Shown: positions 10,451 through 64,000 of the stretch, piece by piece
How the letters are laid out: every line of letters begins with the position of its first letter
Position numbering within the stretch: the stretch's first letter is position 1
Source of the DNA: Ceratodon purpureus
Taxonomy: Eukaryota; Streptophyta; Bryopsida; Pseudoditrichales; Ditrichaceae
DNA: 64,000 nt
Reading direction: 5' to 3'
NCBI GenBank assembly: GCA_014871385.1
Contig: CM026429.1
Span: forward strand, 14,495,979-14,559,978
Translations under genes and position numbers: made by a program
Notes under the pieces: generated by a model
The model's database searches: none
Told to the model about the DNA's origin: nothing
Seen by the model: only the letters and a program-made list of their open reading frames with translations

Positions 10451-10504
10451 TTTTGATAAATTACAATGTTTATAATAAAACAAAAATTACATTTACATTG
10501 TACT

Positions 10505-10556
10505 AAAGAACTCACTACATTCACATTCACATTTACATTCACATTTACATTTACAT
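10505..10556. repeat. Hexamer microsatellite (ACATTC/ACATTT)n
   Basis: About eight tandem copies of the hexamers CATTCA and CATTTA. No function is suggested. Confidence 0.8.
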
Positions 10557-10780
10557 AAATGAAATAGTGGTTAACAACTCCAAAACAAAACTTACAAATG
10601 CAATGATATTCAACACATAGTCCGCTCATACAATTCATTCCACTATGCAACACAACTTTCACAAGCATAGGCAGCTATATAAATGCCGGCAACTGTCCAT
10701 GCCGTAACTAAATCATAGACACGCTGCACGGTTGATCGTGAATCTAATCTAGGTGCTGATCGAAGTCCCATGCTAGTTAC

Positions 10781-11441
10781 TTACGGGGCCGGAGCAGCAG
10801 GTGTTGCTGGAGCAGGGCTTGGAGCGGGTGCTGCAGGAGTCGCAGCTACAGGAGCCTGAACAACACAATTTAAAACAAATGCACCATAGATAATATGAAT
10901 ACGTCAACCTGCCTGAGGTCCTTGTAGTAGTATACATGGATTTGTAAACACTATGCAATACAAGGTTTAAGAAGCAAATTCATTTTTTCTGATTTATGTA
11001 TTATGTTTCTTACTCTCTGAAGGTGTTTACTTCAACAGTTTACTCGTTATAGAACAGGAGAACCAAAATATTTCAGAGTTGTCCTTGTGATCAGCATGAA
11101 CTAACCTCATGAGAAGAATTGTTGGCACGGCAAACAAAGAAACCTGAATCTTCAGTGGCCGCCAATGCTGCTTCGCCCTGTGCTCCGCCACCAATGACCT
11201 GATCAACAAGGAGAAAAGCTAGGTAAGTGTTTGGTAGAATAGACCTACCTACAAATAATACATAATTGACGTGGATGCAATGCCCTTACCAACTCAACGT
11301 TTTTGCATCTTAAAATTCACCATTAAAGACGTTCATGTATAACACAGTGGAGAGAAAAGCTAAGCTCATCGGTCACTCACCACCATAACCTGTTTCGGAG
11401 GAAGTGCCCAATTCGTGCATATCCGCTTCAACCGCTCATTA
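10781..11441 (-). CDS. Three 3' exons of an unidentified minus-strand gene
   Basis: Minus-strand exons 11441-11390, 11198-11106 and 10855-10781 are each bounded by AG/GT. Their phases fit: 1+51 nt, then 93 nt, then 75 nt ending in TAA. They read NERLKRICTNWALPPKQ, then a 31-residue exon starting VIGGGAQGEAALAATEDSGF and ending ANNSSHE, then an Ala/Pro-rich tail APVAATPAAPAPSPAP and onward. I do not recognise the protein. Upstream exons would lie at higher coordinates, so the 15.5-kb hAT-like element at 11507 would sit inside or beside this gene; the boundary is only 66 bp from the first exon seen here. The splice model is my inference. Confidence 0.42.
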
Positions 11442-11498
11442 CTGCATCAAATATTCAATTAAAGTCGTTAACATCACTGCTAAGAGAGCAGACAAAGC

Positions 11499-11506
11499 CT
11501 GCAGAA
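11499..11506. repeat. Left 8-bp target-site duplication CTGCAGAA
   Basis: CTGCAGAA immediately precedes the CAGGGTTGT terminus and is repeated exactly after the other terminus at 26972-26979. An 8-bp duplication is the hallmark of hAT-superfamily insertion. Confidence 0.9.
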
Positions 11507-11514
11507 CAGGGTTG

Positions 11515-11585
11515 TCACGGTCGTCCGGGACGCTCGGGACGTGGGGACGTCCGCGGACGTCCGCCAGCGCCAGGGGACGTCCTGT
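11515..11585. repeat. Left subterminal GACGTCC motif cluster
   Basis: Several overlapping copies of GGACGTCC, GGGACG and CGTCCGC occur in 70 bp next to the left terminus. The right end has the mirror arrangement (26883-26955). hAT transposases bind short repeated subterminal motifs; that these serve so is inferred. Confidence 0.6.
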
Positions 11586-11714
11586 GACTTAGAAAAACAA
11601 AATCACCCGCATAGGTTTCACCCCGGGGTGAAACCACATCTTCTACGCGGCGGAGGGGTTGCGGGGGAGGGTGCGGCCGTCGCCGCGGAGCGGGGGGGCC
11701 GTCGGACGCGTCGA

Positions 11715-12078
11715 GAAGGGGCCGTCCCCGGCGACGGCCCCTTGCCGTCGCCGCAGAGCGGGGGGCCCTCCCCGACGACGGCCCCTAGCCGTCGCCGCGG
11801 TCGTGGGGGGCCGTCCCCGGCGACGGCCCCTTGCCGTCGCCGCGGTGGAGGGGGGCCGTCCCCGGCGACGGCCCCTTGCCGTCGCCGCGGTGGGGGGGGC
11901 CGTCCCCGGCGACGGCCCCTTGCCGTCGCCGCGGTGGGGGGGGCCGTCCCCGGCGACGGCCCCTTGCCGTCGCCGCGGTGGGGGGGGCCGTCCCCGGCCA
12001 CGGCCCCTTGCCGTCGCCGCGGTGGCGGGGGGGCCGTCCCCGGCGACGGCACCTTGCCGTCGCCGCGGAGCCGGCCGC
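11715..12078. repeat. GC-rich mini-array of ~45-50-bp units
   Basis: About eight tandem units each contain CCGTCCCCGGCGACGG, CCCCTTG and CCGTCGCCGCGG. The CGGCGACGG and CCGTCGCCG parts form a perfect 9-bp stem around a 7-nt loop. Copies differ mainly in the length of the G run. The sequence is extremely GC-rich and occurs only at the left end of the element. Confidence 0.85.
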
Positions 12079-13184
12079 AAATTTTTTTATAAAAAATCCC
12101 GAATCTTAAAATCTTCATAACTTCTTCAAAACGTCTCCAAATCGGGCTTATGAGGTGTTTTTTGGCATCTACATTTCCTGTAGATGCCAAAAAACATCTC
12201 ATAAGTCCAATTTGGACAATGTTTGAAGAACTTACGGGAATTTGGAGATTTCGGGGAGTTGAGGGGTCGGCCGTCGGCGGGGACGGGGGGCCGTCCCCGG
12301 CGACGGCCGCGGGGACGGCCGCAAATTTAAAAAAAAAATCCCGAATCTTAAAATCTTCATAACTTCTTCAAAACGTCTCCAAATCGGGCTTATGAGGTGT
12401 TTTTTGCCATCTACATTTCCTGTAGATGCCAAAAAACATCTCATAAGTCCAATTTGGACAAGTTTTGAAGAAGTTACGGGAATTTGGAGATTTCGGGGAG
12501 TTGAGGGGTCGGCCGTCGGCGGGGACGGGGGGCCGACCCCCAGTGACGGCCGTGCGGACGGCCGGCCGTCCCCGGCGACGGCCGCGGGGACAGCCGCAAA
12601 TTTAAAAAAAAAATCCCGAATCTTAAAATCTTCATAACTTCTTCAAAACGTCTCCAAATCGGGCTTATGAGGTGTTTTTTGGCATCTACATTTCTTGTAG
12701 ATGCCAAAAAACATCTCATAAGTCCAATTTGGACAATGTTTGAAGAACTTACGGGAATTTGGAGATTTCGGGGAGTTGAGGGGTCGGCCGTCGGCGGGGA
12801 CGGGGGGCCGACCCCCGGCGACGGCCGCGGGGACGGCCGCAAATTTAAAAAAAAAATCCCGAATCTTAAAATCTTCATAACTTCTTCAAAACGTCTCCAA
12901 ATCGGGCTTATGAGGTGTTTATTGCCATCTACATTTCCTGTAGATGCCAGAAAACATCTCATAAGTTCAATTTGGACAAGTTTTGAAGAAGTTACGGGAA
13001 TTTGGAGATTTCGGGGAGTTGAGGGGTCGGCCGTCGGCGGGGACGGGGGGCCGACCCCCAGTGACGGCCGTGCGGACGGCCGGCCGTCCCCGGCGACGGC
13101 CGCGGGGACAGCCGCAAATTTAAAAAAAAAATCCCGAATCTTAAAATCTTCATAACTTCTTCAAAACGTCTCCAAATCGGGCTT

Positions 13185-15742
13185 ATGAGGTGTTTTTTGG
13201 CATCTACATTTCCTGTAGATGCCAAAAAACATCTCATAAGTCCAATTTGGACAATGTTTGAAGAAGTTACGGGAATTTGGAGATTTCGGGGAGTTGAGGG
13301 GTCGGCCGTCGGCGGGGACGGGGGGCCGACCCCCGGGGACGGCCGCGGGGACGGCCGCAAATTTAAAAAAAAAATCCCGAATCTTAAAATCTTCATAACT
13401 TCTTCAAAACGTCTCCAAATCGGGCTTATGAGGTGTTTTTTGCCATCTACATTTCCTGTAGATGCCAAAAAACATCTCATAAGTCCAATTTGGACAAGTT
13501 TTGAAGAAGTTACGGGAATTTGGAGATTTCGGGGAGTTGAGGGGTCGGCCGTCGGCGGGGACGGGGGCCGACCCCCAGTGACGGCCGTGCGGACGGCCGG
13601 CCGTCCCCGGCGACGGCCGCGGGGACAGCCGCAAATTTAAAAAAAAAATCCCGAATCTTAAAATCTTCATAACTTCTTCAAAAGGTCTCCAAATCGGGCT
13701 TATGAGGTGTTTTTTGGCATCTACATTTCCTGTAGATGCCAAAAAACATCTCATAAGTCCAATTTGGACAATGTTTGAAGAAGTTACGGGAATTTGGAGA
13801 TTTCGGGGAGTTGAGGGGTCGGCCGTCGGCGGGGACGGGGGGCCGACCCCCGGGGACGGCCATGGGGACGGCAAGCGAATTTAAAAAAAAAATCCCGAAT
13901 CTTAAAATCTTCATAACTTCTTCAAAACGTCTCCAAATCGGGCTTATGAGGTGTTTTTTGGCATCTACATTTCCTGTAGATGCCAAAAAACATCTCATAA
14001 GTCCAATTAGGACAATGTTTGAAGAACTTACGGGAATTTGGATATTTCGGGGAGTTGAGGGGTCGGCCGTCGGCGGGGACGGGGGGCCGACCCCCGGGGA
14101 CGGCCGCGGGGACGGCCGCAAATTTAAAAAAAAAATCCCGAATCTTAAAATCTTCATAACTTCTTCAAAACGTCTCCAAATCGGGCTTATGAGGTGTTTT
14201 TTGCCATCTACATTTCCTGTAGATGCCAAAAAACATCTCATAAGTCCAATTTGGACAAGTTTTGAAGAAGTTACGGGAATTTGGAGATTTCGGGGAGTTG
14301 AGGGGTCGGCCGTCGGCGGGGACGGGGGGCCGACCCCCAGTGACGGCCGTGCGGACGGCCGGCCGTCCCCGGCGACGGCCGCGGGGACAGCCGCAAATTT
14401 AAAAAAAAAATCCCGAATCTTAAAATCTTCATAACTTCTTCAAAACGTCTCCAAATCGGGCTTATGAGGTGTTTTTTGGCATCTACATTTCCTGTAGATG
14501 CCAAAAAACATCTCATAAGTCCAATTTGGACAATGTTTGAAGAAGTTACGGGAATTTGGAGATTTCGGGGAGTTGAGGGGTCGGCCGTCGGCGGGGACGG
14601 GGGGCCGACCCCCGGGGACGGCCGCGGGGACGGCCGCAAATTTAAAAAAAAAATCCCGAATCTTAAAATCTTCATAACTTCTTCAAAACGTCTCCAAATC
14701 GGGCTTATGAGGTGTTTTTTGCCATCTACATTTCCTGTAGATGCCAAAAAACATCTCATAAGTCCAATTTGGACAAGTTTTGAAGAAGTTACGGGAATTT
14801 GGAGATTTCGGGGAGTTGAGGGGTCGGCCGTCGGCGGGGACGGGGGCCGACCCCCAGTGACGGCCGTGCGGACGGCCGGCCGTCCCCGGCGACGGCCGCG
14901 GGGACAGCCGCAAATTTAAAAAAAAAATCCCGAATCTTAAAATCTTCATAACTTCTTCAAAAGGTCTCCAAATCGGGCTTATGAGGTGTTTTTTGGCATC
15001 TACATTTCCTGTAGATGCCAAAAAACATCTCATAAGTCCAATTTGGACAATGTTTGAAGAAGTTACGGGAATTTGGAGATTTCGGGGAGTTGAGGGGTCG
15101 GCCGTCGGCGGGGACGGGGGGCCGACCCCCGGGGACGGCCATGGGGACGGCAAGCGAATTTAAAAAAAAAATCCCGAATCTTAAAATCTTCATAACTTCT
15201 TCAAAACGTCTCCAAATCGGGCTTATGAGGTGTTTTTTGGCATCTACATCTCCTGTAGATGCCAAAAAACATCTCATAAGTCCAATTTGGACAAGTTTTA
15301 AAGAAGTTACGGGAATTTGGAGATTTCGGGGAGTTGAGGGGTCGGCCGTCGGCGGGGACGGGGGGCCGACCCCCAGTGACGGCCGTGCGGACGGCCGGCC
15401 GTCCCCGGCGACGGCCGCGGGGACGGCCGCAAATTTAAAAAAAAAATCCCGAATCTTAAAATCTTCATAACTTCTTCAAAACGTCTCCAAATCAGGCTTA
15501 TGAGGTGTTTTTTGGCATCTACATTTCCTGTAGATGCCAAAAAACATCTCATAAGTCCAATTTGGACAATGTTTGAAGAAGTTACGGGAATTTGGAGATT
15601 TCGGGGAGTTGAGGGGTCGGCCGTCGGCGGGGACGGGGGGCCGACCCCCGGGGACGGCCATGGGGACGGCAAGCGAATTTAAAAAAAAAATCCCGAATCT
15701 TAAAATCTTCATAACTTCTTCAAAACGTCTCCAAATCGGGCT
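13185..15742 (+). repeat. 1,279-bp higher-order repeat inside the array
   Basis: Variants at 13185-14463 recur at 14464-15742, offset 1279 (13702 to 14981, 13404 to 14683). Both carry the same rare changes, such as a one-G-shorter GACGGGGGCCGACC run and AAAAGGTCTCC in place of AAAACGTCTCC, though later monomers diverge. This marks an older segmental duplication than the 3,143-bp one. Confidence 0.7.
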
Positions 15743-18700
15743 TATGAGGTGTTTTTTGGCATCTACATTTCCTGTAGATGCCAAAAAACATCTCATAAGT
15801 CCAATTAGGACAATGTTTGAAGAACTTACGGGAATTTGGATATTTCGGGGAGTTGAGGGGTCGGCCGTCGGCGGGGACGGGGGGCCGACCCCCGGGGACG
15901 GCCGCGGGGACGGCCGCAAATTTAAAAAAAAAATCCCGAATCTTAAAATCTTCATAACTTCTTCAAAACGTCTCCAAATCGGGCTTATGAGGTGTTTTTT
16001 GCCATCTACATTTCCTGTAGATGCCAAAAAACATCTCATAAGTCCAATTTGGACAAGTTTTGAAGAAGTTACGGGAATTTGGAGATTTCGGGGAGTTGAG
16101 GGGTCGGCCGTCGGCGGGGACGGGGGGCCGACCCCCAGTGACGGCCGTGCGGACGGCCGGCCGTCCCCGGCGACGGCCGCAGGGACAGCCGCAAATTTTA
16201 AAAAAAAATCCCGAATCTTAAAATCTTCATAATTTCTTCAAAACGTCTCCAAATCGGGCTTATGAGGTGTTTTTTGGCATCTACATTTCCTGTAGATGCC
16301 AAAAAACATCTCATAAGTCCAATTTGGACAAGTTTTGAAGAAGTTACGGGAATTTGGAGATTTCGGGGAGTTGAGGGGTCGGCCGTCGGCGGGGACGGGG
16401 GGCCGACCCCCAGTGACGGCCGTGCGGACGGCCGGCCGTCCCCGGCGACGGCCGCGGGGACAGCCGCAAATTTAAAAAAAAAATCCCGAATCTTAAAATC
16501 TTCATAACTTCTTCAAAAGGTCTCCAAATCGGGCTTATGAGGTGTTTTTTGGCATCTACATTTCCTGTAGATGCCAAAAAACATCTCATAAGTCCAATTT
16601 GGACAATGTTTGAAGAAGTTACGGGAATTTGGAGATTTCGGGGAGTTGAGGGGTCGGCCGTCGGCGGGGACGGGGGGCCGACCCCCAGTGACGGCCGTGC
16701 GGACGGCCGGCCGTCCCCGGCGACGGCCGCGGGGACGGCCGCAAATTTAAAAAAAAAATCCCGAATCTTAAAATCTTCATAACTTCTTCAAAACGTCTCC
16801 AAATCAGGCTTATGAGGTGTTTTTTGGCATCTACATTTCCTGTAGATGCCAAAAAACATCTCATAAGTCCAATTTGGACAATGTTTGAAGAAGTTACGGG
16901 AATTTGGAGATTTCGGGGAGTTGAGGGGTCGGCCGTCGGCGGGGACGGGGGGCCGACCCCCGGGGACGGCCATGGGGACGGCAAGCGAATTTAAAAAAAA
17001 AAATCCCGAATCTTAAAATCTTCATAACTTCTTCAAAACGTCTCCAAATCGGGCTTATGAGGTGTTTTTTGGCATCTACATTTCCTGTAGATGCCAAAAA
17101 ACATCTCATAAGTCCAATTTGGACAATGTTTGAAGAACTTACGGGAATTTGGATATTTCGGGGAGTTGAGGGGTCGGCCGTCGGCGGGGACGGGGGGCCG
17201 ACCCCCGGGGACGGCCGTGGGGACGGCCGGCCGTCCCCGGCGACGGCCGCGGGGACGGCCGCAAATTTAAAAAAAAAATCCCGAATCTTAAAATCTTCAT
17301 AACTTCTTCAAAACGTCTCCAAATCGGGCTTATGAGGTGTTTTTTGCCATCTACATTTCCTGTAGATGCCAAAAAACATCTCATAAGTCCAATTTGGACA
17401 AGTTTTGAAGAAGTTACGGGAATTTGGAGATTTCGGGGAGTTGAGGGGTCGGCCGTCGGCGGGGACGGGGGGCCGACCCCCAGTGACGGCCGTGCGGACG
17501 GCCGGCCGTCCCCGGCGACGGCCGCGGGGACAGCCGCAAATTTAAAAAAAAAATCCCGAATCTTAAAATCTTCATAACTTCTTCAAAACGTCTCCAAATC
17601 GGGCTTATGAGGTGTTTTTTGGCATCTACATTTCCTGTAGATGCCAAAAAACATCTCATAAGTCCAATTTGGACAATGTTTGAAGAAGTTACGGGAATTT
17701 GGAGATTTCGGGGAGTTGAGGGGTCGGCCGTCGGCGGGGACGGGGGGCCGACCCCCGGGGACGGCTGCGGGGACGGCCGCAAATTTAAAAAAAAAATCCC
17801 GAATCTTAAAATCTTCATAACTTCTTCAAAACGTCTCCAAATCGGGCTTATGAGGTGTTTTTTGCCATCTACATTTCCTGTAGATGCCAAAAAACATCTC
17901 ATAAGTCCAATTTGGACAAGTTTTGAAGAAGTTACGGGAATTTGGAGATTTCGGGGAGTTGAGGGGTCGGCCGTCGGCGGGGACGGGGGCCGACCCCCAG
18001 TGACGGCCGTGCGGACGGCCGGCCGTCCCCGGCGACGGCCGCGGGGACAGCCGCAAATTTAAAAAAAAAATCCCGAATCTTAAAATCTTCATAACTTCTT
18101 CAAAAGGTCTCCAAATCGGGCTTATGAGGTGTTTTTTGGCATCTACATTTCCTGTAGATGCCAAAAAACATCTCATAAGTCCAATTTGGACAATGTTTGA
18201 AGAAGTTACGGGAATTTGGAGATTTCGGGGAGTTGAGGGGTCGGCCGTCGGCGGGGACGGGGGGCCGACCCCCGGGGACGGCCATGGGGACGGCAAGCGA
18301 ATTTAAAAAAAAAATCCCGAATCTTAAAATCTTCATAACTTCTTCAAAACGTCTCCAAATCGGGCTTATGAGGTGTTTTTTGGCATCTACATCTCCTGTA
18401 GATGCCAAAAAACATCTCATAAGTCCAATTTGGACAAGTTTTGAAGAAGTTACGGGAATTTGGAGATTTCGGGGAGTTGAGGGGTCGGCCGTCGGCGGGG
18501 ACGGGGGGCCGACCCCCAGTGACGGCCGTGCGGACGGCCGGCCGTCCCCGGCGACGGCCGCGGGGACGGCCGCAAATTTAAAAAAAAAATCCCGAATCTT
18601 AAAATCTTCATAACTTCTTCAAAACGTCTCCAAATCAGGCTTATGAGGTGTTTTTTGGCATCTACATTTCCTGTAGATGCCAAAAAACATCTCATAAGTC

Positions 18701-20749
18701 CAATTTGGACAATGTTTGAAGAAGTTACGGGAATTTGGAGATTTCGGGGAGTTGAGGGGTCGGCCGTCGGCGGGGACGGGGGGCCGACCCCCGGGGACGG
18801 CCATGGGGACGGCAAGCGAATTTAAAAAAAAAATCCCGAATCTTAAAATCTTCATAACTTCTTCAAAACGTCTCCAAATCGGGCTTATGAGGTGTTTTTT
18901 GGCATCTACATTTCCTGTAGATGCCAAAAAACATCTCATAAGTCCAATTAGGACAATGTTTGAAGAACTTACGGGAATTTGGATATTTCGGGGAGTTGAG
19001 GGGTCGGCCGTCGGCGGGGACGGGGGGCCGACCCCCGGGGACGGCCGCGGGGACGGCCGCAAATTTAAAAAAAAAATCCCGAATCTTAAAATCTTCATAA
19101 CTTCTTCAAAACGTCTCCAAATCGGGCTTATGAGGTGTTTTTTGCCATCTACATTTCCTGTAGATGCCAAAAAACATCTCATAAGTCCAATTTGGACAAG
19201 TTTTGAAGAAGTTACGGGAATTTGGAGATTTCGGGGAGTTGAGGGGTCGGCCGTCGGCGGGGACGGGGGGCCGACCCCCAGTGACGGCCGTGCGGACGGC
19301 CGGCCGTCCCCGGCGACGGCCGCAGGGACAGCCGCAAATTTTAAAAAAAAATCCCGAATCTTAAAATCTTCATAATTTCTTCAAAACGTCTCCAAATCGG
19401 GCTTATGAGGTGTTTTTTGGCATCTACATTTCCTGTAGATGCCAAAAAACATCTCATAAGTCCAATTTGGACAAGTTTTGAAGAAGTTACGGGAATTTGG
19501 AGATTTCGGGGAGTTGAGGGGTCGGCCGTCGGCGGGGACGGGGGGCCGACCCCCAGTGACGGCCGTGCGGACGGCCGGCCGTCCCCGGCGACGGCCGCGG
19601 GGACAGCCGCAAATTTAAAAAAAAAATCCCGAATCTTAAAATCTTCATAACTTCTTCAAAAGGTCTCCAAATCGGGCTTATGAGGTGTTTTTTGGCATCT
19701 ACATTTCCTGTAGATGCCAAAAAACATCTCATAAGTCCAATTTGGACAATGTTTGAAGAAGTTACGGGAATTTGGAGATTTCGGGGAGTTGAGGGGTCGG
19801 CCGTCGGCGGGGACGGGGGGCCGACCCCCAGTGACGGCCGTGCGGACGGCCGGCCGTCCCCGGCGACGGCCGCGGGGACGGCCGCAAATTTAAAAAAAAA
19901 ATCCCGAATCTTAAAATCTTCATAACTTCTTCAAAACGTCTCCAAATCAGGCTTATGAGGTGTTTTTTGGCATCTACATTTCCTGTAGATGCCAAAAAAC
20001 ATCTCATAAGTCCAATTTGGACAATGTTTGAAGAAGTTACGGGAATTTGGAGATTTCGGGGAGTTGAGGGGTCGGCCGTCGGCGGGGACGGGGGGCCGAC
20101 CCCCGGGGACGGCCATGGGGACGGCAAGCGAATTTAAAAAAAAAATCCCGAATCTTAAAATCTTCATAACTTCTTCAAAACGTCTCCAAATCGGGCTTAT
20201 GAGGTGTTTTTTGGCATCTACATTTCCTGTAGATGCCAAAAAACATCTCATAAGTCCAATTTGGACAATGTTTGAAGAACTTACGGGAATTTGGATATTT
20301 CGGGGAGTTGAGGGGTCGGCCGTCGGCGGGGACGGGGGGCCGACCCCCGGGGACGGCCGTGGGGACGGCCGGCCGTCCCCGGCGACGGCCGCGGGGACGG
20401 CCGCAAATTTAAAAAAAAAATCCCGAATCTTAAAATCTTCATAACTTCTTCAAAACGTCTCCAAATCGGGCTTATGAGGTGTTTTTTGCCATCTACATTT
20501 CCTGTCGATGCCAAAAAACATCTCATAAGTCCAATTTGGACAAGTTTTGAAGAAGTTACGGGAATTTGGAGATTTCAGGGAGTTGAGGGGTCGGCCGTCG
20601 GCGGGGACGGGGGGCCGACCCCCAGTGACGGCCGTGCGGACGGCCGGCCGTCCCCGGCGACGGCCGCGGGGACAGCCGCAAATTTAAAAAAAAAATCCCG
20701 AATCTTAAAATCTTCATAACTTCTTCAAAACGTCTCCAAATCGGGCTTA
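14464..20749 (+). repeat. 3,143-bp tandem higher-order duplication
   Basis: 14464-17606 and 17607-20749 are near-identical 12-monomer blocks. Private variants recur at the same offset: ATCTCCTGTAG at about 15248 and 18391, GCCGCAGGGACAGCC at about 16177 and 19320, CATAATTTCTTC at about 16229 and 19372. Only a few differences separate the blocks (for example one extra A near 16991, and GGCTGCGG at 17763). It is the most recent amplification in the array, unless produced in assembly. Confidence 0.85.
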
Positions 20750-22789
20750 TGAGGTGTTTTTTGGCATCTACATTTCCTGTAGATGCCAAAAAACATCTCA
20801 TAAGTCCAATTTGGACAATGTTTGAAGAACTTACGGGAATTTGGAGATTTCCGGGAGTTGAGGGGTCGGCCGTCGGCGGGGACGGGGGGCCGACCCCCGG
20901 GGACGGCCATGGGGACGGCAAGCGAATTTAAAAAAAAAATCCCGAATCTTAAAGTCTTCATAACTTCTTCAAAACGTCTCCAAATCGGGCTGATCAGGTG
21001 TTTTTTGGCATCTACATTTCCTGTAGATGCAAAAAACATCTCATAAGTCCAATTTGGACAAGTTTTGAAGAAGTTACGGGAATTTGGAGATTTCGGGGAG
21101 TTGAGGGGTCGGCCGTCGGCGGGGACGGGGGGCCGACCCCCAGTGACGGCCGTGCGGACGGCCGGCCGTCCCCGGCGACGGCCGCGGGGACAGCCGCAAA
21201 TTTAAAAAAAAAATCCCGAATCTTAAAATCTTCATAACTTCTTCAAAACGTCTCCAAATCGGGCTTATGAGGTGTTTTTTGGCATCTACATTTCCTGTAG
21301 ATGCCAAAAAACATCTCATAAGTCCAATTTGGACAATGTTTGAAGAAGTTACGGGAATTTGGAGATTTCGGGGAGTTGAGGGGTCGGCCGTCGGCGGGGA
21401 CGGGGGGCCGACCCCCGGCGACGGCCGCGGGGACGGCCGCAAATTTAAAAAAAAAATCCCGAATCTTAAAATCTTCATAACTTCTTCAAAACGTCTCCAA
21501 ATCGGGCTTATGAGGTGTTTATTGCCATCTACATTTCCTGTAGATGCCAGAAAACATCTCATAAGTTCAATTTGGACAAGTTTTGAAGAAGTTACGGGAA
21601 TTTGGAGATTTCGGGGAGTTGAGGGGTCGGCCGTCGGCGGGGACAGGGGGCCGACCCCCAGTGACGGCCGTGCGGACGGCCGGCCGTCCCCGGCGACGGC
21701 CGCGGGGACAGCCGCAAATTTAAAAAAAAAATCCCGAATCTTAAAATCTTCATAACTTCTTCAAAACGTCTCCAAATCGGGCTTATGAGGTGTTTTTTGG
21801 CATCTACATTTCCTGTAGATGCCAAAAAACATCTCATAAGTCCAATTTGGACAATGTTTGAAGAAGTTACGGGAATTTGGAGATTTCGGGGAGTTGAGGG
21901 GTCGGCCGTCGGCGGGGACGGGGGGCCGACCCCCGGCGACGGCCATGGGGACGGCCGCAAATTTTAAAAAAAAATCCCGAATCTTAAAATCTTCATAACT
22001 TCTTCAAAACGTCTCCAAATCGGGCTTATGAGGTGTTTTTTGGCATCTACATTTCCTGTAGATGCCAAAAAACATCTCATAAGTCCAATTTGGACAATGT
22101 TTGAAGAACTTACGGGAATTTGGAGATTTCGGGGAGTTGAGGGGTCGGCCGTCGGCGGGGACGGGGGGCCGACCCCCGAAGACGGCCGTGGGGTCGGCCG
22201 GCCGTCCCCGGCGACGGCCGCGGGGACGGCCGCAAATTTAAAAAAAAAATCCCGAATCTTAAAATCTTCATAACTTCTTCAAAACGTCTCCAAATCGGGC
22301 TTATGAGGTGTTTTTTGCCATCTACATTTCCTGTAGATGCCAAAAAACATCTCATAAGTCCAATTTGGACAAGTTTTGAAGAAGTTACGGGAATTTGGAG
22401 ATTTCGGGGAGTTGAGGGGTCGGCCGTTGGCGGGGACGGGGGGCCGACCCCCAGTGACGGCCGTGCGGACGGCCGGCCGTCCCCGGCGACGGCCGCGGGG
22501 ACAGCCGCAAATTTAAAAAAAAAATCCCGAATCTTAAAATCTTCATAACTTCTTCAAAACGTCTCCAAATCGGGCTTATGAGGTGTTTTTTGGCATCTAC
22601 ATTTCCTGTAGATGCCAAAAAACATCTCATAAGTCCAATTTGGACAATGTTTGAAGAAGTTACGGGAATTTGGAGATTTCGGGGAGTTGAGGGGTCGGCC
22701 GTCGGCAGGGACGGGGGGCCGACCCCCGGGGACGGCCGTGGGGACGGCCGGCCGTCCCCGGCGACGGCCGCGGGGACGGCCCCCCGTCC

Positions 22790-23347
22790 GCTTGGAGGCG
22801 GGGTCTCGCATGGCCTTCCTTCTTCTCTTGCGTTTTCTTTAGAGACGGCCATCCCTCCCCTCCTCCTCTCGTCGAACCTTGACAAAAAAAATTCTATTTC
22901 TAGATACTCTAAAAACAAAATTAATACCGAATTAGAAATTTCAGAGATATCCCTGAAATGATGGATAATGTCCAAAAGATTTTGTAATCGGGATTGTGGG
23001 ATCCGCCTTGATGTTGGGGTATACTTTAGAAGGAGATATTTATGCCGTTCAATTGTTGGTGCTCTACTATGGTTTGCAAACATAATCTCAATGTTTAGAA
23101 GGAAGAATCCATTTGTTTTGGAAATGAAATTATGGCCCATGGGCCTATAGACGAGGGAGGTATACGATGGGGGGTACAACTTAAAAGGTAATGAGAAGCT
23201 TATAAAAAATAATATTCTTTTATTTGAAGACATTAGGTAATAAAATTAAAAGAGAACTCGACATGGATTTCTCTTACATTAATATGACAAGTTTGTATGT
23301 TTTTGGCTTTAATTTTATATGGCAAGACAAATCCCTTTTTCCATAAA
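22790..23347 (+). repeat. Left arm of a ~570-bp internal inverted repeat
   Basis: This arm pairs with 24936-25510 in inverse orientation, with few differences. It begins at the edge of the satellite and ends near TTTTTCCATA. On the minus strand it stays open as part of a long frame continuing into the satellite, and so does its partner. Residues such as PSYTSLVYRPMGHNF are shared between the two arms. I see no known domain, so coding is doubtful. Confidence 0.9.
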
Positions 23348-24935
23348 TGGAACATTGGAATTAAATAAAGGATAAACTTGAAATTTAGAAATGAATTTGA
23401 ATGAGAGGATTTGGAAGGTATGTTGTAGAGGACGTAACTCTTATAAATTAGATTTCAAATCAAATTAGATAGAAGTTGAAATTGTGTGAAGGAGGTTGGA
23501 GGACACATTAAATAGAATTGAGGATTGTAAAGTTGAATTAGAAGTCGAAGATGGTGGACAAAAAATTCATTATAAGTGATAGAGGATAGAAATTTAAATA
23601 CAACAAATTTTAGTTCTAATAATAAATAAATTGATTAATTAATTAAAAAACCAAGCAATCTGACAAGGGTGGATGTTTAATTTTAAAAGGTGAGTGAATT
23701 TTGAAGGTTTCGGAGTTGACATTAAGAGAACTGTTTCTTGCTTTTGAAATGAAAGATATGCTAGTATTACATTTGAGTACTTGGGCAAGTGAATGCCACA
23801 TTGTTTGCCTTCCATTCCTTTTAGACAAACACCAAGTCTATATGGCTTAAAGTTTAACAAATCTCGTCAATTTTTTATTCTGAGACTTATGATTTCTTTC
23901 CATCTTAAAGGTGATTCATAATCATTATTTTTATGAATGAAAGACATAACATGTGGATTCATCTAAATGTGGAAATACAAACACATACTTCATAGCCAAA
24001 AATTTATATTTGTTTATTTATTTATTTAAGTATTCAATTATTTTGTATTCTTTTCTTAGTCTCCGATTCTACCTTTTATTTTTATACTTTTTCCATTTGC
24101 CTTCTATGCTATCTTCTTGTTATTTTATTATTACACTATTATTCCATTCTATACTCTGAACTTTTTATTATTACACTATTTTTCCATTCTATCGTCTCTT
24201 TAGTTTTTCATCTTAACATTATTCTTCCATTTTATCTTCTCATTTTCCTATCCTTCCATTCCTCTCCCATCATCTATTTATTTATTTAATATTCCTCTAA
24301 TCTGTCTCCCATTCTATCTTTTTACTTTTGCCTATCGGAAGAAAGGAAAAATAAGTAAAAGATTAGGGGATTATATTATGTACAAGACAATAATAAAAAA
24401 CAGACAATTGAAATAAAATACAATATGACAGTAAATGAAACATAACAAATAACCGCGAGACAGACAAACTACAATGGGAAAAGGTTTGAAGGAAATAGAT
24501 GTGTATAGAGAAGATAGATATCAAGGGAAAAAACAAAAAATAAAAAAAGTACATGAGAGGTAATAATAAATCAAAAAGATAATTAGAATAAAAGATCAAA
24601 TAAAAAATAATAATAATAATTGCAAGAGTGGAAATGACATACAAGAAGAGATGAGGAGTATGAAGTGAATAGAAAAAACCATGTCATCGTGATAACATTA
24701 TGGCAAAAGAAGAAACTAAATAAAAATATCCAACTTAGAAAGGACTTTTTTCTTAAAGATTAAAGAATTAGATAAAGCACGAGACAATAATTGGAAAATA
24801 GTTAATTAAAATTCCATAGAATAAAATGGTATTTGAAAACATAAGAAATAAGTTCAATAACACTAAGATATACAAACTAGAGTGGGCATAATTTTAAATA
24901 CCCAAGAAAGCAATTAATTAGGAAAAGAGCATTTT
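23348..24935. other. AT-rich core of the element
   Basis: About 1.6 kb of very AT-rich DNA lies between the inverted arms. 23990-24330 is T/C-rich and 24340-24900 is A/G-rich. Two diverged direct copies (about 24356-24485 and 24757-24900, sharing ACAATAAT, GACAGACAAACTA-like and CTAGAGTGGG-like stretches) are visible. No transposase or other credible coding region is present. Confidence 0.6.
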
Positions 24936-25510
24936 CATGGAAAAAAGGATTTGTCTTGCCTTATAAAATTAAAGCCAAAAACATACAAACTTGTCATATT
25001 AATGTAAGAGAAATCCATGTCGAGTTCTCTTTTAATTTTATTACCTAATGTCTTCAAATAAAAGAATATTACTTTTTATAAGCTTCTTATTACCTTTTAA
25101 GTTGTACCCCCCATCGTATACCTCCCTCGTCTACAGGCCCATGGGCCATAATTTCATTTTCAAAACAAATGGATTCTTCCTTCTAAACATTGAGATTATG
25201 TTTGCAAACCATAGTAGAGCACCAACAATTGAACGGCATAAATATCTCCTTCTAAAGTATACCCCAACATCAAGGCGGATCCCACAATCCCGATTACAAA
25301 ATCTTTTGGACATTTTCCATGATTTCAGGGATATGTCTGAAATTTCTAATTCGGTATTGATTTTGTTTTTAGAGTATCTAGAAATAGAATTTTTTTTGTC
25401 AAGGTTGGACGAGAGGAGGAGGGGACGGATGGCCGTCTCTAGAGAAAACGCAAGAGAAGAAGGAAGGCCATGCGAGACCCCGCCTCCAAGCGGACGGGGG
25501 GCCGTCCCCG
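24936..25510 (-). repeat. Right arm of the internal inverted repeat
   Basis: Inverse copy of 22790-23347; see that entry. Differences are single bases and short indels. Confidence 0.9.
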
Positions 25511-26290
25511 CGGCCGTCGCCGGGGACGGCCGGCCGTCCGCACGGCCGTCACTGGGGGTCGGCCCCCCGTCCCCGCCGACGGCCGACCCCTCAACTCCCC
25601 GAAATCTCCAAATTCCCGTAACTTCTTCAAAACTTGTCCAAATTGGACTTATGAGATGTTTTTTGGCATCTACAGGAAATGTAGATGCCAAAAAACACCT
25701 CATAAGCCCGATTTGGAGACGTTTTGAAGAAGTTATGAAGATTTTAAGATTCGGGATTTTTTTTTTAAATTTGCGGCCGTCCGCACGGCCGTCACTGGGG
25801 GTCGGCCCCCCGTCCCCGCCGACGGCCGACCCCTCAACTCCCCGAAATCTCTAAATTCCCGTAACTTCTTCAAAACTTGTCCAAATTGGACTTATGAGAT
25901 GTTTTTTGGCATCTACAGGAAATGTAGATGCCAAAAAACACCTCATAAGCCCGATTTGGAGACGTTTTGAAGAAGTTATGAAGATTTTAAGATTCGGGAT
26001 TTTTTTTTTAAATTTGCGGCCGTCCCCGCGGCCGTCGCCGGGGACGGCCGGCCGTCCGCACGGCCGTCACCAGGGCTCGGCCCCCCGTCCCCGCCGACGG
26101 CCGACCCCTCAACTCCCCGAAATCTCCAAAGTCCCGTAACTTCTTCAAAACTTGTCCAAATTGGACTTACGAGATGTTTTTTGGCATCTACAGGAAATGT
26201 AGATGCCAAAAAACACCTCATAAGCCCGATTTGGAGACGTTTTGAAGAAGTTATGAAGATTTTAAGATTCGGGATTTTTTTTTTTTAATT
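25511..26290 (-). repeat. Three satellite monomers in inverted orientation
   Basis: Three monomers of the same family as 12085-22790 lie on the opposite strand, with hairpin cores near 25660-25700, 25905-25945 and 26180-26222. The first two are separated by a short GC spacer. They make the right arm a shortened mirror of the left arm. Confidence 0.93.
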
Positions 26291-26971
26291 TGCGGCCATC
26301 CCCGCGGCCGTCGCCGGGGACGGCCGGCCGTCCCCACGCGGTCGGCCACGTGGACGGCCGCGTCTCCACGCGGTCGCCCACGCGGTCGGCCGCGGGATCG
26401 GACGGCCCTCCGCGGCCAACCATGCCGGCCGGGGGCCGTCTGATCCCGCGGCCGTCGCCGTTGCCGACCGCGGGGTCGGCCAAGGGGACGGCCGCGGGAT
26501 CGGATGGCCCGCGGTCGGCCGCGCCGCTCGAGCGGTCCGCGATGGCTTGCGCCGAGGTCGATCCGGGCCGTCGGATCCCGCGGCCGTCCCCGAGGCCGTC
26601 CCCGCGGTCGGCCACGGCGACGGCCGTGGGATCCGACGGCCCTGGAGGGCCGCCCACATCCGACGGCCCGCGATGTGCCAGCACGGCCGCATCTTGGCCG
26701 TCGGATCGACGTGCGGCCGTCCCCAACAACCCCGCGGCCGTCTCCGCGGCCGTCCCCGCGGCCGTCCCCGCGAACGGACGGCCGAGATGGGGCGTGGTGG
26801 CGGGATCGGCCGATCGGACGGCTGGGGAATGTTTTTACCCCTCCGGGGTCGCAAAATTATTACCGGGACGTAATTCTGGAGCGTCGAGGACGCCACGTCC
26901 GGGACGGGGGACGTCCGGGTCGGACGTCTTGACGTCCGGAGCCGGGTCGGACGTCTATTTGAACAACCCTG
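26291..26971. repeat. GC-rich right end with CGGCCG/CCGTCCCC motifs and GACGTCC cluster
   Basis: An extremely GC-rich stretch made of variants of GCGGCCGTCCCCGCGG and GGGATCGGACGGCC, ending in a GACGTCC-rich subterminal region (26883-26955) and the TIR. Long overlapping open frames on both strands are low-complexity artefacts. Confidence 0.7.
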
Positions 26972-26979
26972 CTGCAGAA
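26972..26979. repeat. Right 8-bp target-site duplication CTGCAGAA
   Basis: Exact copy of 11499-11506 directly after ACAACCCTG. Confidence 0.9.
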
Positions 26980-27231
26980 GTATGAAGTGCCCAAGAAATG
27001 ACTACATCTACATGTGTAATTTATTGTTAAAAAATAAATGAAAATACAGCTGTTATAGCGAATACATCACTTTTCTTCCTTAAGAGCAAATCATTTTGCT
27101 TGGAAACAGATCAAAAAGCTAAGACAAACTGTGACACTCTCAACACTTTTCCATTGTTTGAGATGGATGAAGCATTGATCACCTTAGAGGTTCTCCAGGT
27201 GCTAATTCATCACTCCCGTTGCTTACATGAG

Positions 27232-27333
27232 TAATGTGTTGAAATTTGTAGTTGCCTAGTTGGTCCAATAAACAAGTGAGATCTTCCTCAGGCCCACGAG
27301 CTAAGAGAGCTTGTTTCAACCCTCTTCTCTGAA
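27232..27333 (-). CDS. Candidate isolated exon
   Basis: On the minus strand an AG follows a pyrimidine-rich run and precedes RRGLKQALLARGPEEDLTCL and LDQLGNYKFQHITH, then GTAAGC. Composition and splice signals look exon-like. It lies across the hAT-like element from the exons at 10.8-11.4 kb and downstream of the J-domain fragment. Its end phase (0) does not fit directly onto the exon at 11441, so linkage is unproven. Confidence 0.27.
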
Positions 27334-28384
27334 TTGAAAGACACCATGCAGTCAGATACTTTGCAACACATACAAGAAGCTTGGGAACGTGTTGATTCAG
27401 AGGGCAGTGAAACATGGACAGTTCAAATGCGAAACAAACGCCGAATGCACTGACAAGCGGTGTTGAAATAAAACCAATTCGAGTAACTCTTGATCTGCAT
27501 AATCGATCGTTGCACACCTGACCTTGGTTCTTCACATCCGCCTCGTGTACTCTGTTTCTTCCTCTGTTCCAAGTGCTAGCGCTGTGTAGATTAAGTACCA
27601 GGGTCAGTTCGGTGGTTGCGTCACTCTGCCTGCTAAATCAGTTGCGAAGGACTCGAGCTGCTTCTCACATTCCTTTTGGATCTCGATCGTATTCCGGTTT
27701 CAGAGCTGATCGGTTCTAAGGCATAAGGACATCATGATCCCCGAGTCTGTCACGATGATCCTCTGCGGCCGCTTGATTATGCGCGTCCAGCCGTATTAGG
27801 CTTTGCGTTACTGGAAGTGCTTCGCTTATTCAAATCAGACTCCAAGTCCTTGAAGAATTCGTCTGCAATAAAGGAGAGAGAGAAATATGAAAATCAGAGG
27901 TCAGAATAATGCAACCGTGCCAAAGCTTTCCATCATCAAACACCAGAGGGAAACAGAGAAGTTCGACGCTCTACCAACTGAACCCTGCAAGTCATTCCAC
28001 AACTCGCCTGCAACCCACCGGCCCACTCCGTATAAGTCCCCTTTCCTATCTCTACACTTGGTGCATTACCCCTCGGGCCTCTAAATGCTTATAAAGCTCA
28101 TCATTGTATCGGTTCTATACACTAATCCTAAACATTTATTCGCAACTGAGAGCCACAAATACCAACCAACTTCTCACGCAGCCGTCATACTTGAACTGCA
28201 GATTCACTTTGCTATACATCATTGCTCTCCGGTAGGGAGAGCTATGATATTATATGAAGAACACGCAAAGATTGTTTTAAAAGTATCAGCTGGTGATTAG
28301 GAGCATGAAGGAATGGAGGACAGAAGAACTTCAAGAGCAAACACGGAAAATTCAGAGAGATTGGGCGTTTGAAATGTACTGAAT

Positions 28385-32649: not shown

Positions 32650-33478
32650 TTTACGTCACCTTACTCTTATTCATTGACACAGTTAGGAACCTGATTATAT
32701 TTGTGCAAGGCTGATTGGTTTGCATAAAGGGTCATATGTTGCAACAGGAATTGTGACCAGTGTAAGAATTGTACTCTTGTGCACTGATGTGTGCACTTGT
32801 TACTTACAAGACCCATCACTGTTTTTCACAAGACCTTTCAACCTGTATATGCACCATTGAAGCAACCAACTGTGAGTTAGTGAGTGATTGTTTATATATG
32901 AGTGATATCAGTGTAGACATGTTAGTAGATTCCCTCCCCTCACTGATCTCCCTTTCACTTCAGCTTAGACTTATATTAGCAAATTAGAGTTACATCAGCA
33001 CATTAGACTAACATCAGTACATTAGACTAACATCAGCACATTAGACTAACATCAGCACATTAGACTAACATCAGCACATTAAACTAACATCAGCACATTA
33101 GACTAACATCAGCACATTAGACTAACATCAGCTCATTCTTTGACAAAGTGATTGTTCAGACATGGACTGTAGATTCTTTTTACATCACCTTATTCTTATT
33201 CATTGACACATGTAGGAACCTGATTATATTTGTGCAAGGCTGATTGGTTTGCATAAAGGGTCATATGTTGAAATAGGAATTGTGACCAGTGTGAGAATTG
33301 TACTCTTGTGCACTGATGTGTGCACTAGTTACATACAAGACCCATCACTGTTTTTCACAAGACCTTTCAACATGTATATGCACCATTGAAGCAACCAACT
33401 GTGAGTTAGTGAGTGATTGTTTATATATGAGTGATATCAGTGTAGACATGTTAGTAGATTCCCTCCCGTCACTGATTT
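32650..33478 (+). repeat. ~300-bp direct duplication around a 19-bp minisatellite
   Basis: 32650-32952 recurs at about 33178-33478 (both contain TATATGAGTGATATCAGTG and GTAGACATGTTAGTAGATTC). Between them, 32992-33138 is a minisatellite of about seven copies of ACATCAGCACATTAGACTA with a partial last copy. The short open frames starting with MYSCALMCALVTYKTHH in both halves are repeat-borne and not convincing genes. Confidence 0.88.
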
Positions 33479-41218: not shown

Positions 41219-42738
41219 GGTATGAACCTCAACACATACAAAAATTGTGTATTAATGGTTCTCTCTCACAGTTATACAGGTGCATGAACTCTACTGTATT
41301 CTACATGTCTAATTTATCACCCAGTGAAATTCCACGGTGTCTTGAACAGTAGGCAATTGGCTATTGTGAGTGCTCTGCTCTGCCGGCCCAGAGGCAACCG
41401 CCAGGTGACTTATTTACTGAATTTACATTTGCTTATTAGGAGTACTTTTCCGCCTGTCCTTCTATTTGAGCAGTCGAATTGGTTCACGCGTCTTTTCATG
41501 CACCATTTGTCCTCCACTTCGTACTAAACCATAACTTTTTCACTTCCCAAACACTCCATGTTTTTGCTTGTACAGGACACATGAATCTGCTGGCGATTTG
41601 GGGAGCAGCTTCATGACATCAATCCGCCTTTGTGGTCAAGACAAATCGCCTTCATGCCCTGCCCTCGTTACCACTGCATCGGCACATTCGCACGCAGTAT
41701 TTCAGTTGATCTTCGGAGTCTGTATTTCCATGTTTGAGGTCGATTGCTCGACCGCAAATTCCTTTCTAGTACACTAAACCGTGTATATCAACGTCCACCG
41801 TGCACTTGACTGCAGTAGTGTTATTTAATCACGCCATGAACCTGATATTCGTCCCCATGCCACGCATCCAATGTCGAATTGCGAATTGCTGGTCTGGGAA
41901 TCTCTCAGGCCCCTCTGTTTTTACTCAGTCCAGGTGTACGCATTTTTGTTGACTACGTATTGGTCATACTGTTCTCCTTTTCTCACATGAAATAAAGATT
42001 CCGGTAATGTATTTCCCATTTCAACATCGTCCACCCATATTCTCACTCCGACATTGTGTTCTTCGTTTATTGCGGCCAATCCCTGTTTTCTAGTATTTTG
42101 AAAATTCCGAATTACAACGCGTATAGTCTATCATGCCGTACACATACGTTCATACGTATCTCTATACAGTGCACAATGCGCAGTAGAAACCCTAAAACTG
42201 GATCAGTCAATAACTGGACACGTGTCACCATCTGAGAACGACAATCTCTTCAGATCTACCGGCAGCTGTCAACTGCCTGCGCACTCCCAACGCTCCACAA
42301 TTGTTCACGCGTTAGTTCCTTCACCGTCGATGTGAAAACTCCCGGTGGCCAGAGAGGGTGCCACCTGCCAAACCCATGGCACTCAGCGGTTATATCCCAA
42401 TAATTGTGACTTTACTGTGTCATTAATTATCGAAGAATCCGTTGACCATTCAAGGCAGATTCTCACAGTTAATACAACCGCAGACTGTACAGTGAACGCA
42501 GACTCAATAGCGTCCCGGGTAGCGACGTAGTATTCCGGGTATCGATGTGGCCACCCAGTCACCGGGTGGTACACGCTGGAATTCTGACCTGGCATTGCGC
42601 TCTCGAGACACAACAAATCAAGACAGCTCTCATCCTGACGTGTGAATCAACTCGTCCGATTCAAGAGGAATCAACTAATTTGATCAACAGAATTCTCTTC
42701 CACAACAGTTGATTCACCTGCGGGATTTCTAGTAGTGT
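41219..42738. other. Intergenic region before the phytochrome kinase
   Basis: No gene is supported; the left part is probably the 3' UTR of the preceding gene. The expected phytochrome N-terminal exon (with a QTFGC-type motif) was looked for in all three forward frames here and not found. Confidence 0.5.
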
Positions 42739-45700
42739 GAAGAGCCGAATTTCTGTGTTATAGCGTACAGTGAGAATGCCTCCGAGTTTCTAGATCTGAT
42801 ACCCCAGGCCGTCCCAAGTATGGGGGAGATGGACGTGCTAGGAATCGGGACGGATATAAGAACTTTATTCACACCGTCGAGTAGTGCCGCTCTTGAGAAG
42901 GCAGCTGCAACTCAGGATATAAGCCTTCTTAACCCAATCACTGTTCATTGCAGACGCTCAGGGAAACCGTTATATGCCATTGCCCATCGCATAGACATTG
43001 GTATAGTCATTGACTTTGAGGCGGTGAAAATGATTGATGTTTCAGTTTCAGCTGCTGCCGGTGCTCTGCAATCTCACAAACTTGCGGCCCGGGCTATTAC
43101 ACGACTTCAAGCATTACCTGGAGGCGACATAGAGTTGCTTTGTGATACTATTGTTGAGGAGGTGCGGGAACTTACTGGGTATGACAGGGTGATGGCTTTT
43201 AAATTTCATGAAGATGAGCATGGCGAAGTTGTGGCAGAAATACGTCGCATGGATCTTGAGCCCTATATGGGTCTCCATTATCCGGCCACTGACATTCCCC
43301 AGGCGTCCCGTTTTCTGTTAATGAAGAACAGGGTGCGGTTGATAGCTGATTGCTATGCGTCTCCAGTGAAACTCATACAAGATCCAGACATTAGGCAGCC
43401 AGTCAGCTTGGCAGGTTCGACTTTACGTGCCCCGCATGGATGTCATGCCCAGTACATGGGTAACATGGGCTCCATTGCGTCGCTTGTCATGGCCGTAATC
43501 ATCAATGATAACGAGGAATATTCACGTGGGGCAATTCAAAGAGGTAGAAAGCTGTGGGGACTCGTAGTGTGTCAGCATACATCTCCACGAACTGTACCGT
43601 TTCCACTTCGGTCTGTGTGCGAGTTTTTGATGCAGGTATTTGGTATGCAGCTCAACCTCCATGTTGAGCTGGCCGCTCAACTAAGGGAAAAACATATTCT
43701 CAGAACTCAAACTCTTCTTTGTGACATGCTTCTTCGAGATGCTCCTATTGGAATTGTATCTCAAACTCCAAATATTATGGATCTTGTGAAATGTGATGGA
43801 GCAGCTCTTTACTATGGGAAGCGATTGTGGCTTCTTGGCACGACACCGACTGAGAATCAGATCAAAGAGATTGCAGACTGGTTGCTAGAGCATCACAACG
43901 ACTCAACAGGTCTTAGTACGGATAGTTTAGCGGATGCGAATTATCCAGGTGCACACCTGCTTGGCGACGCTGTTTGTGGTATGGCAGCTGCAAAAATCAC
44001 TGCGAAGGATTTCCTTTTCTGGTTCAGGTCTCACACTGCTACAGAGGTCAAATGGGGTGGTGCTAAACACGATCCAGATGAAAAAGATGATGGCCGAAAA
44101 ATGCATCCCAGAAGCTCTTTCAAAGCCTTTTTAGAGGTTGTGAACAAAAGAAGTCCACCCTGGGAAGACGTAGAAATGGATGCTATACATTCCCTTCAGC
44201 TCATTCTACGTGGCTCCTTTCGAGATATTGCTGACAGCGACACAAAGACCATGATCCACGCACGTCTGAATGACTTGAAGCTTCAGGGCGTGGAAGAACG
44301 AAACGCACTCGCTAATGAGATGTCGCGCGTATTAGAAACCGCGGCTGCCCCAATCCTGGCGGTTGATTCAAGGGGAATGATTAATGCTTGGAATGCAAAA
44401 ATAGCACAGGTCACAGGGCTTCCAGTCGAAGAGGCTATGCATCGTTCGTTGACGAAAGATCTCGTGTTGGATGAGTCAGTGGTGGTTGTTGAGAGATTAC
44501 TTTCTCTGGCGTTGCAAGGTAAAGTTTTCTTTTTAGACACCGTATTCTTGTAACATTCGTAGAGCTCTTTGTAGACCTTGTTAATGGCCCAACTAGAGGG
44601 TAATTTAAAGGAAAATGCGTTGCCAACTTTTGAGTAATGATTAAGCATATTAATGGATGCAAGCACTGAATGTGAAATGTAAGTCAACATGTGCTAATTC
44701 CTGTTGGTGCAGCCACAAAGCTAACCGGATGGTTTACATTGTGGTCGTGTCTTGTGGAGTGAAGATTGTATGTCCATTGTACTGAAATTTTCTTATTTTT
44801 GCTGTTCATTCAGGTGAGGAGGAGCAGAATGTGGAAATCAAGTTGAAGACCTTTGGCACTCAGACCACTGAAAGAGCAGTTATTCTGATTGTTAACGCCT
44901 GCTGCTCTAGAGATGCGTCGGACACTGTTGTTGGCGTTTTCTTTGTGGGCCAAGATGTAACTGAGCAGAGAATGTTCATGGACAGGTTTACTCGTATACA
45001 AGGTGGTGAAAAGACCACTGTCCAGGACCCCCACCCTCTCATGCGTCCAAGTTTTGATGGTGACGAATTTGGACGCACTTTCAAGAGGAACTCAGCATTG
45101 GGGGGTTTGAAAGGTGGAGCTTTTACCAATTATAATTTGAACCTTTCCTGCTTTTGTATTAAAGTTGTAGTAGGATGTGCCTAGTTAGTGTGGATTTATA
45201 AGTGTAGTATGTCAAGCTTTCTACCTAGTTTCTAAGTGAATAATTGATGATCCACTACACACAGTTAGCTTGTTTCTCTTTACTTAGAATTAATTTTTGC
45301 GCAATGCCGTTGCTTCCAAGCAGATCATGCTACCGGATCAGTGGAAAGACTTGATTTGTACCTGAGGCGCGCAGAAGAATGTGTGGAGGTAATGGAAACG
45401 ATTCCTTCACCAAAATTTAACAACAAGCAGTGCCAATATCTTGCTGGTAAACTCAAAGCAGTTCTTCAGAGTGCAAGCTTGTTCTTAAGGATATCGCATC
45501 ATGAACACCATGAACTTGGTGCGTCTATAGACATGGGAAGACATGTTGAAATCGTCAAGCTACTGCTTGCATTGGCAAAGGAGATTGAAAGCTTCATTCA
45601 AGGATGCTGCAAAGATGAGTGGATCAAAGCTGCAATGACATTGACAAACGTGTCGGAGTACGTCTCATCAATGGGATTTAACTTGGAGCTGTGTAAAATT

Positions 45701-63860: not shown

Positions 63861-64000
63861 CTGAAACAGAGCAGCCCAATGTACCATGTCATTACAATTC
63901 GTTGCACATGTGTACCAAGTCTGTCACACGACCAATCAATAATACTGCAGGACTACAGGATTCAACATTACCAACAAACTCTTTAAGCCTCAAAACCCAC

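Follow-up and report, generated by a model that had tools for sequence, protein, structure and literature searches.

The stretch of moss (Ceratodon purpureus) DNA analysed here, 64,000 bp long and referred to below as the window, corresponds to C9:14495979-14559978 of the searched 362-Mb assembly and carries, at positions 11507-26971, a single insertion of about 15.5 kb with an exact 8-bp target-site duplication and 9-bp inverted tips. The element has two inverted arms built of hairpin-forming tandem repeats around an A+T-rich loop, and is very probably a non-autonomous member of the hAT superfamily. Its parts, in window coordinates and from the left (L) to the right (R) end, are the following:

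11499..11506, no strand, left target-site duplication, 8-bp CTGCAGAA, identical to 26972-26979
11507..11515, + strand, inverted tip of the L end, 9-bp CAGGGTTGT
11507..12068, + strand, left subterminal region, G+C-rich, containing GGACGTCC three times and 44-bp tandem repeats at 11718-12068
12102..22775, + strand, left arm array, 41 hairpin monomers in steps of 242-245 and 274-275 bp
22776..23347, + strand, left inner arm, an inverted match to the right side
23348..24932, + strand, loop, A+T-rich, 1585 bp, longest listed frame 93 codons
24933..25490, - strand, right inner arm, inverted copy of the left inner arm
25509..26269, - strand, right arm array, 3 inverted hairpin monomers
26336..26971, - strand, right subterminal region, G+C-rich, with a GACGTCC cluster
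26963..26971, - strand, inverted tip of the R end, 9-bp CAGGGTTGT
26972..26979, no strand, right target-site duplication, 8-bp CTGCAGAA, read from the sequence

Borders and internal structure of the element

A preliminary description of this locus, made from the letters alone, had proposed precise borders with identical 8-bp flanks and the same tips at both ends, and these were confirmed at 11499-11515 and 26963-26979. The tip CAGGGTTGT has only two matches in the whole window, one per strand, both at the tips of the element. When the whole window was searched for 8-bp direct repeats accompanied by 9-bp inverted tips and separated by 200-20,000 bp, 237 pairs were found, of which 236 fall among the repeats within the element itself, while the sole remaining one is the element border; the same search in whole-window resamples gave a mean of 0.2 pairs. 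For pairs bracketing the array (10500-11700 with 26700-28200), none of 3000 resamples contained one with 9-bp tips, and 103 of 3000 did when tips of 5 bp were used instead. The subterminal clusters of GACGTCC were also found as described, with five occurrences on the + strand of the window, every one at the two ends of the element. A short terminal inverted repeat of the CAGGG type is the hAT consensus, and both the CAGGGTTGT tips and the exact 8-bp duplication of the window element are of the hAT kind. With respect to a location of the element in an intron, translation of the joined flanks showed no clear reading frame across the junction.

The count of about 41 hairpin monomers in one arm and 3 in the other held, with 41 in the left array and 3, inverted, in the right one. 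Left-array monomers are 96.9% alike on average, and the two that were folded form one long hairpin each (z = -11.5 as RNA and -10.6 as DNA). Every monomer also has a G+C-rich linker, the longer monomer class carrying around 32 bp of extra linker. The inverted arms run about 560 bp further inward than the arrays to enclose the 1585-bp loop, in such a way that positions 24933-25815 on the right match positions 23347-22467 on the left, inverted, at 96.7% over 883 bp. Long inverted arms made of tandem repeats are thus present, and this part of the foldback-like description stood; the arms, however, start at a distance from the tips, about 560 bp on the left and 640 bp on the right, and are not strict terminal inverted repeats, and the outer regions of the two ends are not inverted copies of each other, their inverted likeness beyond the tips being 84 bp at 67%.

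A Pfam scan of ten frames from the loop, the inner arms and neighbouring monomers gave no match, and neither did an Rfam scan of the whole window at gathering scores. A protein search with the frame crossing a monomer and an inner arm produced 177 candidates, none of them with E <= 0.01, and no copies elsewhere, and a search for the hairpin pattern in viral_contigs and genome_contigs had no matches in either set.

Family copies and a transposase-encoding partner

The preliminary description had allowed that no other copy might share these ends. The 26-base L end of the window type was found at 78+63 sites of the genome (reversed control 0), and the pattern CAGGGTTGTN{0,20}GACGTCC occurred 151+161 times, versus 20+18 for its reversed control. 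All the close pairs of L-type and R-type ends among the first 100 listed end places, 13 in number and 3.98-5.11 kb in length, were fetched. The copies with the same ends and different 8-bp duplications that had been suggested as a check were found among them, as 11 of the 13 are flanked by an exact duplication, and the other two by one that matches at 7 of 8 positions. Exact 8-bp duplications were also detected at the locus L030 and at the 16.8-kb element described below. A common plan was seen in all 13 copies (end, hairpin or hairpins, inner arm, loop, inner arm, hairpin or hairpins, other end), with 1+1 hairpins per arm in 11 of them and 1+2 in two. Loop identity to that of the window goes from 98% down to 81-84% (L010, L016 and L021), which indicates that the family has older and younger branches. 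A search of the genome with the loop, which returned 399 candidates, gave 40 scored copies at 98-100%, the window included.

On contigs C1-C5, those with R-end positions to compare, 36 of the 41 window-type L ends have an R end within 70 kb. Nineteen of these paired copies measure 4.0-7.1 kb, and 14 of the nineteen contain a core or monomer match; 12 measure 16.3-16.8 kb (11 with a transposase match), and the remaining 5, at 30-54 kb, are probably nested or mispaired. Two of the 13 fetched copies, L012 and L013, which lie 63 kb apart on C1, are identical in their 8-bp duplication and in the bases that flank it, and probably correspond to a local segmental duplication that carried the element along. 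In L018, a 5.1-kb foldback copy, the loop is interrupted by around 860 bp of other sequence.

The orientation of the loop relative to the L and R ends is variable, being inverted in 9 of 16 complete copies (8 of 15 if L012 and L013 are counted once) and as in the window in the other seven (the window itself, L010, L014, L015, L021, L030 and L036). A separate comparison of listed positions found inversion in 4 of 14, with three loci in common with the 16-copy set. Recombination between the inverted arms, from which both orientations are expected, would be the simplest account.

An autonomous hAT relative with matching ends had also been proposed as something to look for. When the genome was searched with the hAT dimerisation profile, 150 scored matches were obtained from 874 candidates. 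An R-type end lies 13.5-13.9 kb downstream of 13 of the 22 matches on C1-C5, and of 10 of the 13 C1-C5 matches whose open frame spans 1000 codons or more. One such candidate lies at C1:3992289-4009092 (L063-L065 plus L004), an element of 16,804 bp flanked on both sides by the 8-bp duplication GTAATGAC, whose first 562 bp are 96.6% identical to the left end of the window element (11507-12068) and whose last 611 bp are 93% identical to its right end. Between these matching ends lies a transposase frame of 1032 codons from stop to stop, in which the 927 residues scanned showed DUF659 (6e-36) and the hAT dimerisation domain (1.3e-10). When this transposase was used in a protein search, 43 relatives were detected among 7992 candidates scored, the best at 99% and one from Cryptomeria at 30%; since the relatives P0121-P0129 are 46-99% identical, the lineage probably extends beyond this genome.

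Three further long frames are known from this one 16.8-kb copy, read in pieces. The first, of 1056 codons, encodes a RING finger above the Pfam cut-off; another, of 520 codons, had no Pfam match; and the last, of 406 codons (309 residues scanned), is kinase-like, with matches to four kinase-type families (best 1.7e-5), all under the Pfam cut-offs. The RING and the 520-codon proteins have an N-terminal region in common, of about 31% identity over 142 residues (7e-10). A partner with three long frames beside its transposase is unusual in its own right, and among the papers listed by a literature search, judged by title or abstract start, nothing clearly matched for giant or multi-frame plant hATs. 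Accessory genes in hATs are not unprecedented, since PMC12730594 describes fungal hAT elements with an extra gene.

A related kinase-like frame, in this case above one kinase cut-off, was found in L022. The L022/L023 locus (C1:27131104-27146374) is a 15.3-kb palindrome with R-type ends at both borders and 3.8-kb arms that are 99.9% alike, fetched flanks included; the incomplete transposase, RING and kinase-like parts inside it come from an element related to, but diverged from, the 16.8-kb one. This palindrome may be either a real inversion-duplication or an assembly fold.

Growth of the left array

All the other arms seen have one to five monomers, versus an exceptional 41 in the left arm of the window element. 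The 96 strongest monomer matches fall into 39 arm clusters, with two monomers in 24 of them, three in 13, four in one and five in one; this search scored 39 of 395 candidate places and skipped very common words, and the left array of the window itself is absent from the rows it listed. Four close relatives with arms that exceeded the first fetched stretch have exactly 3 hairpins in the left arm, and left+right counts of 1+1 and 2+1 were also found in close relatives. Exact copies of a 35-base hairpin core number 160+109 across the genome (control 0), 34+3 of them in the window; as only 126 forward and 106 reverse cores remain outside it, a second array of similar size elsewhere in the genome is unlikely. 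Among the first 100 of these 269 core places, no same-strand run is longer than 3, and each of the 27 pairs formed by neighbouring runs has the inverted arrangement of the element.

At each of the 20 fetched monomer loci, which belong to 13 elements including that of the window, an element end is found on the outer side, in exact form at 18 and with a single mismatch at 2. A satellite of the same family continuing beyond these ends at other loci, which the preliminary description had considered as counter-evidence, did not appear, and no element-independent tandem array was seen at the 20 loci or among the first 100 of the 269 core matches, with 39 of 395 candidates scored.

Two features inside the left array bear on its growth:

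13864..20944, + strand, monomer-junction variant, 7 copies (converted from genome coordinates G000:C9:14509842-14516922)
14075..22200, + strand, tandem duplication of about 12 monomers, 14075-19059 versus 17219-22200, 99.0% over 4987 bp at an offset of 3144

Over 4987 aligned positions, 43 mismatches and 7 gap openings separate the two copies of the block, and there are 20 pairs of letter-identical monomers in the array. The junction variant has 7 occurrences genome-wide, all within this array (control 0). Because this variant is private to the array, and given the 99.0% block duplication, the array appears to have been amplified within the lineage of this copy. Of the statement that the arms are satellite DNA, the long tandem hairpin array stood, although as a private expansion of this copy and not as a property of the other arms.

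It is possible, although rather doubtful, that the arm was already large before the present insertion and that the whole 15.5-kb element moved as a unit. Size would be no bar to this, as many elements with these ends measure 16.3-16.8 kb (12 of the 36 paired copies on C1-C5); against it, no second genome locus with the private variant was found, even though cut-and-paste movement does not necessarily leave one behind, and the longest member of the 4-7 kb class on C1-C5 measures 7.1 kb. That the array length, or the large block duplication, is partly an artefact of assembly, the true copy having fewer monomers like its relatives, seems unlikely. The identical monomer pairs, the 99.0% block repeat and the limit of five monomers in every other arm seen would fit such an artefact, whereas the mismatches and gap openings between the block copies, and variants such as the private junction interspersed along the array, speak against it. 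The array length is given as assembled and depends on the assembly, which counts as a reservation for the amplification proposed here.

Origin of the element and known systems

We consider the window element, with a probability of around 0.9, to be a non-autonomous copy of a hAT family with foldback-type arms and the ends of the 16.8-kb partner, because this partner has the same ends, a hAT transposase and an 8-bp duplication of its own. The borders, the family copies and the partner transposase uphold the proposal of a single hAT insertion rather than a centromeric or heterochromatic satellite. The 16.8-kb element is the likely helper, as judged from its ends and domains: between the shared ends, the inverted arms and the loop would replace the genes of the partner, whose transposase would act on the CAGGGTTGT tips and the subterminal GGACGTCC sites and move the small element by cut and paste. 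In this lineage, blocks of several monomers would have been duplicated in tandem again and again, through unequal exchange or replication slippage aided by the hairpins and the inverted arms, bringing the left arm from a few hairpins to 41, and the loop would be flipped by recombination between the inverted arms. More broadly, we see an even chance that a moss multi-gene hAT lineage (16-17 kb, with transposase, RING-finger, kinase-like and third proteins) is parasitised by an unstable foldback derivative whose loop flips and whose copies give birth to satellites.

Several data weigh against this interpretation. The inner arms are only weakly similar to the partner (62-65% over 207-357 bp), the monomer resembles it in the G+C-rich linker alone, and the loop not at all. 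At the R-R pair L022/L023, whose ends are 15 kb apart, a direct duplication is missing and one flank is the inverted copy of the other. Reciprocal best matching of left and right arms was found in 6 of 28 elements, the window not being among the six; with arms within the 28 elements 98.0% alike on average, concerted evolution of the arms within an element is weakly suggested. The target preference of hAT elements is nTnnnnAn, and the target-site duplications show no clear base preference: of 13 distinct exact ones, their orientation not being normalised, 5 carry T at position 2 and 6 carry A at position 7. Mobilisation is deduced from sequence.

A pre-existing genomic satellite in which two hAT ends happen to lie, or the invasion of a hAT element by a satellite, would account for the long regular tandem array, and also for the 21 of 75 exact-core runs from the first 100 listed places that lack an exact partner within 5 kb, a further point against our interpretation. 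It is nevertheless very improbable in view of the element ends at 20 of 20 monomer loci, the inversion of all 27 paired runs and the single hairpin in each arm of 11 of the 13 basic copies. Chance as the source of the borders was rejected on these grounds. According to PMC4079207, the majority of foldback elements are Mutator-like, and a Mutator-type foldback element, as proposed there for Tetris, could be thought of in place of a hAT. Practically no weight is left to this assignment, which was rejected as contradicted by the partner with matching ends and a hAT dimerisation domain and by the 8-bp duplications.

Regarding known systems, the FB elements of Drosophila also have tandem-repeat inverted arms around a loop, but their arms reach the tips, unlike those of the moss element, and they are not hAT elements. 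To our knowledge, non-autonomous hAT members usually have no long inverted arms. The FB elements are mentioned in PMC4079207, which describes Tetris of Drosophila virilis as a non-autonomous foldback element with an outer domain, arm repeats of about 220 bp in variable number, an inner domain and a non-coding middle, with arrays of up to 66 repeats derived from it, target-site duplications of 8-10 bp, and an assignment to Mutator made on indirect grounds, no transposase source having been found. The moss element has the same succession of domains and variable repeat number, and differs from Tetris in its identified hAT-transposase partner, its hairpin repeats and the lack of free arrays where these were looked for. 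Galileo, of the P superfamily in Drosophila, has long foldback-like inverted repeats with a variable number of internal direct repeats, as in the moss arms, one long copy having a region with as many as 9 tandem repeats; unlike the moss element, it has a P-type transposase, and no 41-unit array is noted in the consulted part of the source (PMC4168063). Duplications of 8 bp are usual in Ac-like hATs (PMC12730594). The moss family resembles these in its 8-bp duplications, CAGGG tips, subterminal repeats and the DUF659 plus dimerisation-domain transposase of its partner, which differs from the usual hAT in its 16.8-kb length and three further long reading frames.

Foldback architecture and changes in repeat number are therefore already known in other superfamilies, as Tetris and Galileo illustrate. 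A foldback example in the hAT superfamily was not found in the literature searched, subscription papers being mostly outside it, nor was a paper combining Ceratodon purpureus, hAT and transposon. The element described here places this architecture in hAT. The origin of satellites is a long-standing question, and a single genome displays a series of 1, 2, 3, 4, 5 and 41 hairpins per arm; with many copies 98-99% alike in the loop and the transposase source identified, satellite origin and growth become traceable copy by copy.

In the rest of the window, a 19-bp tandem repeat (9 copies, 92% matches) lies outside the element at 32965-33137, and gene pieces were found for a phytochrome (42736-44550), a protein kinase (45269-46609), an ABC transporter (56715-57314) and a MurJ-like protein (63376-63888). 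The best match of the phytochrome piece is at 88%, with Sphagnum magellanicum at 81% and Physcomitrium at 77%.

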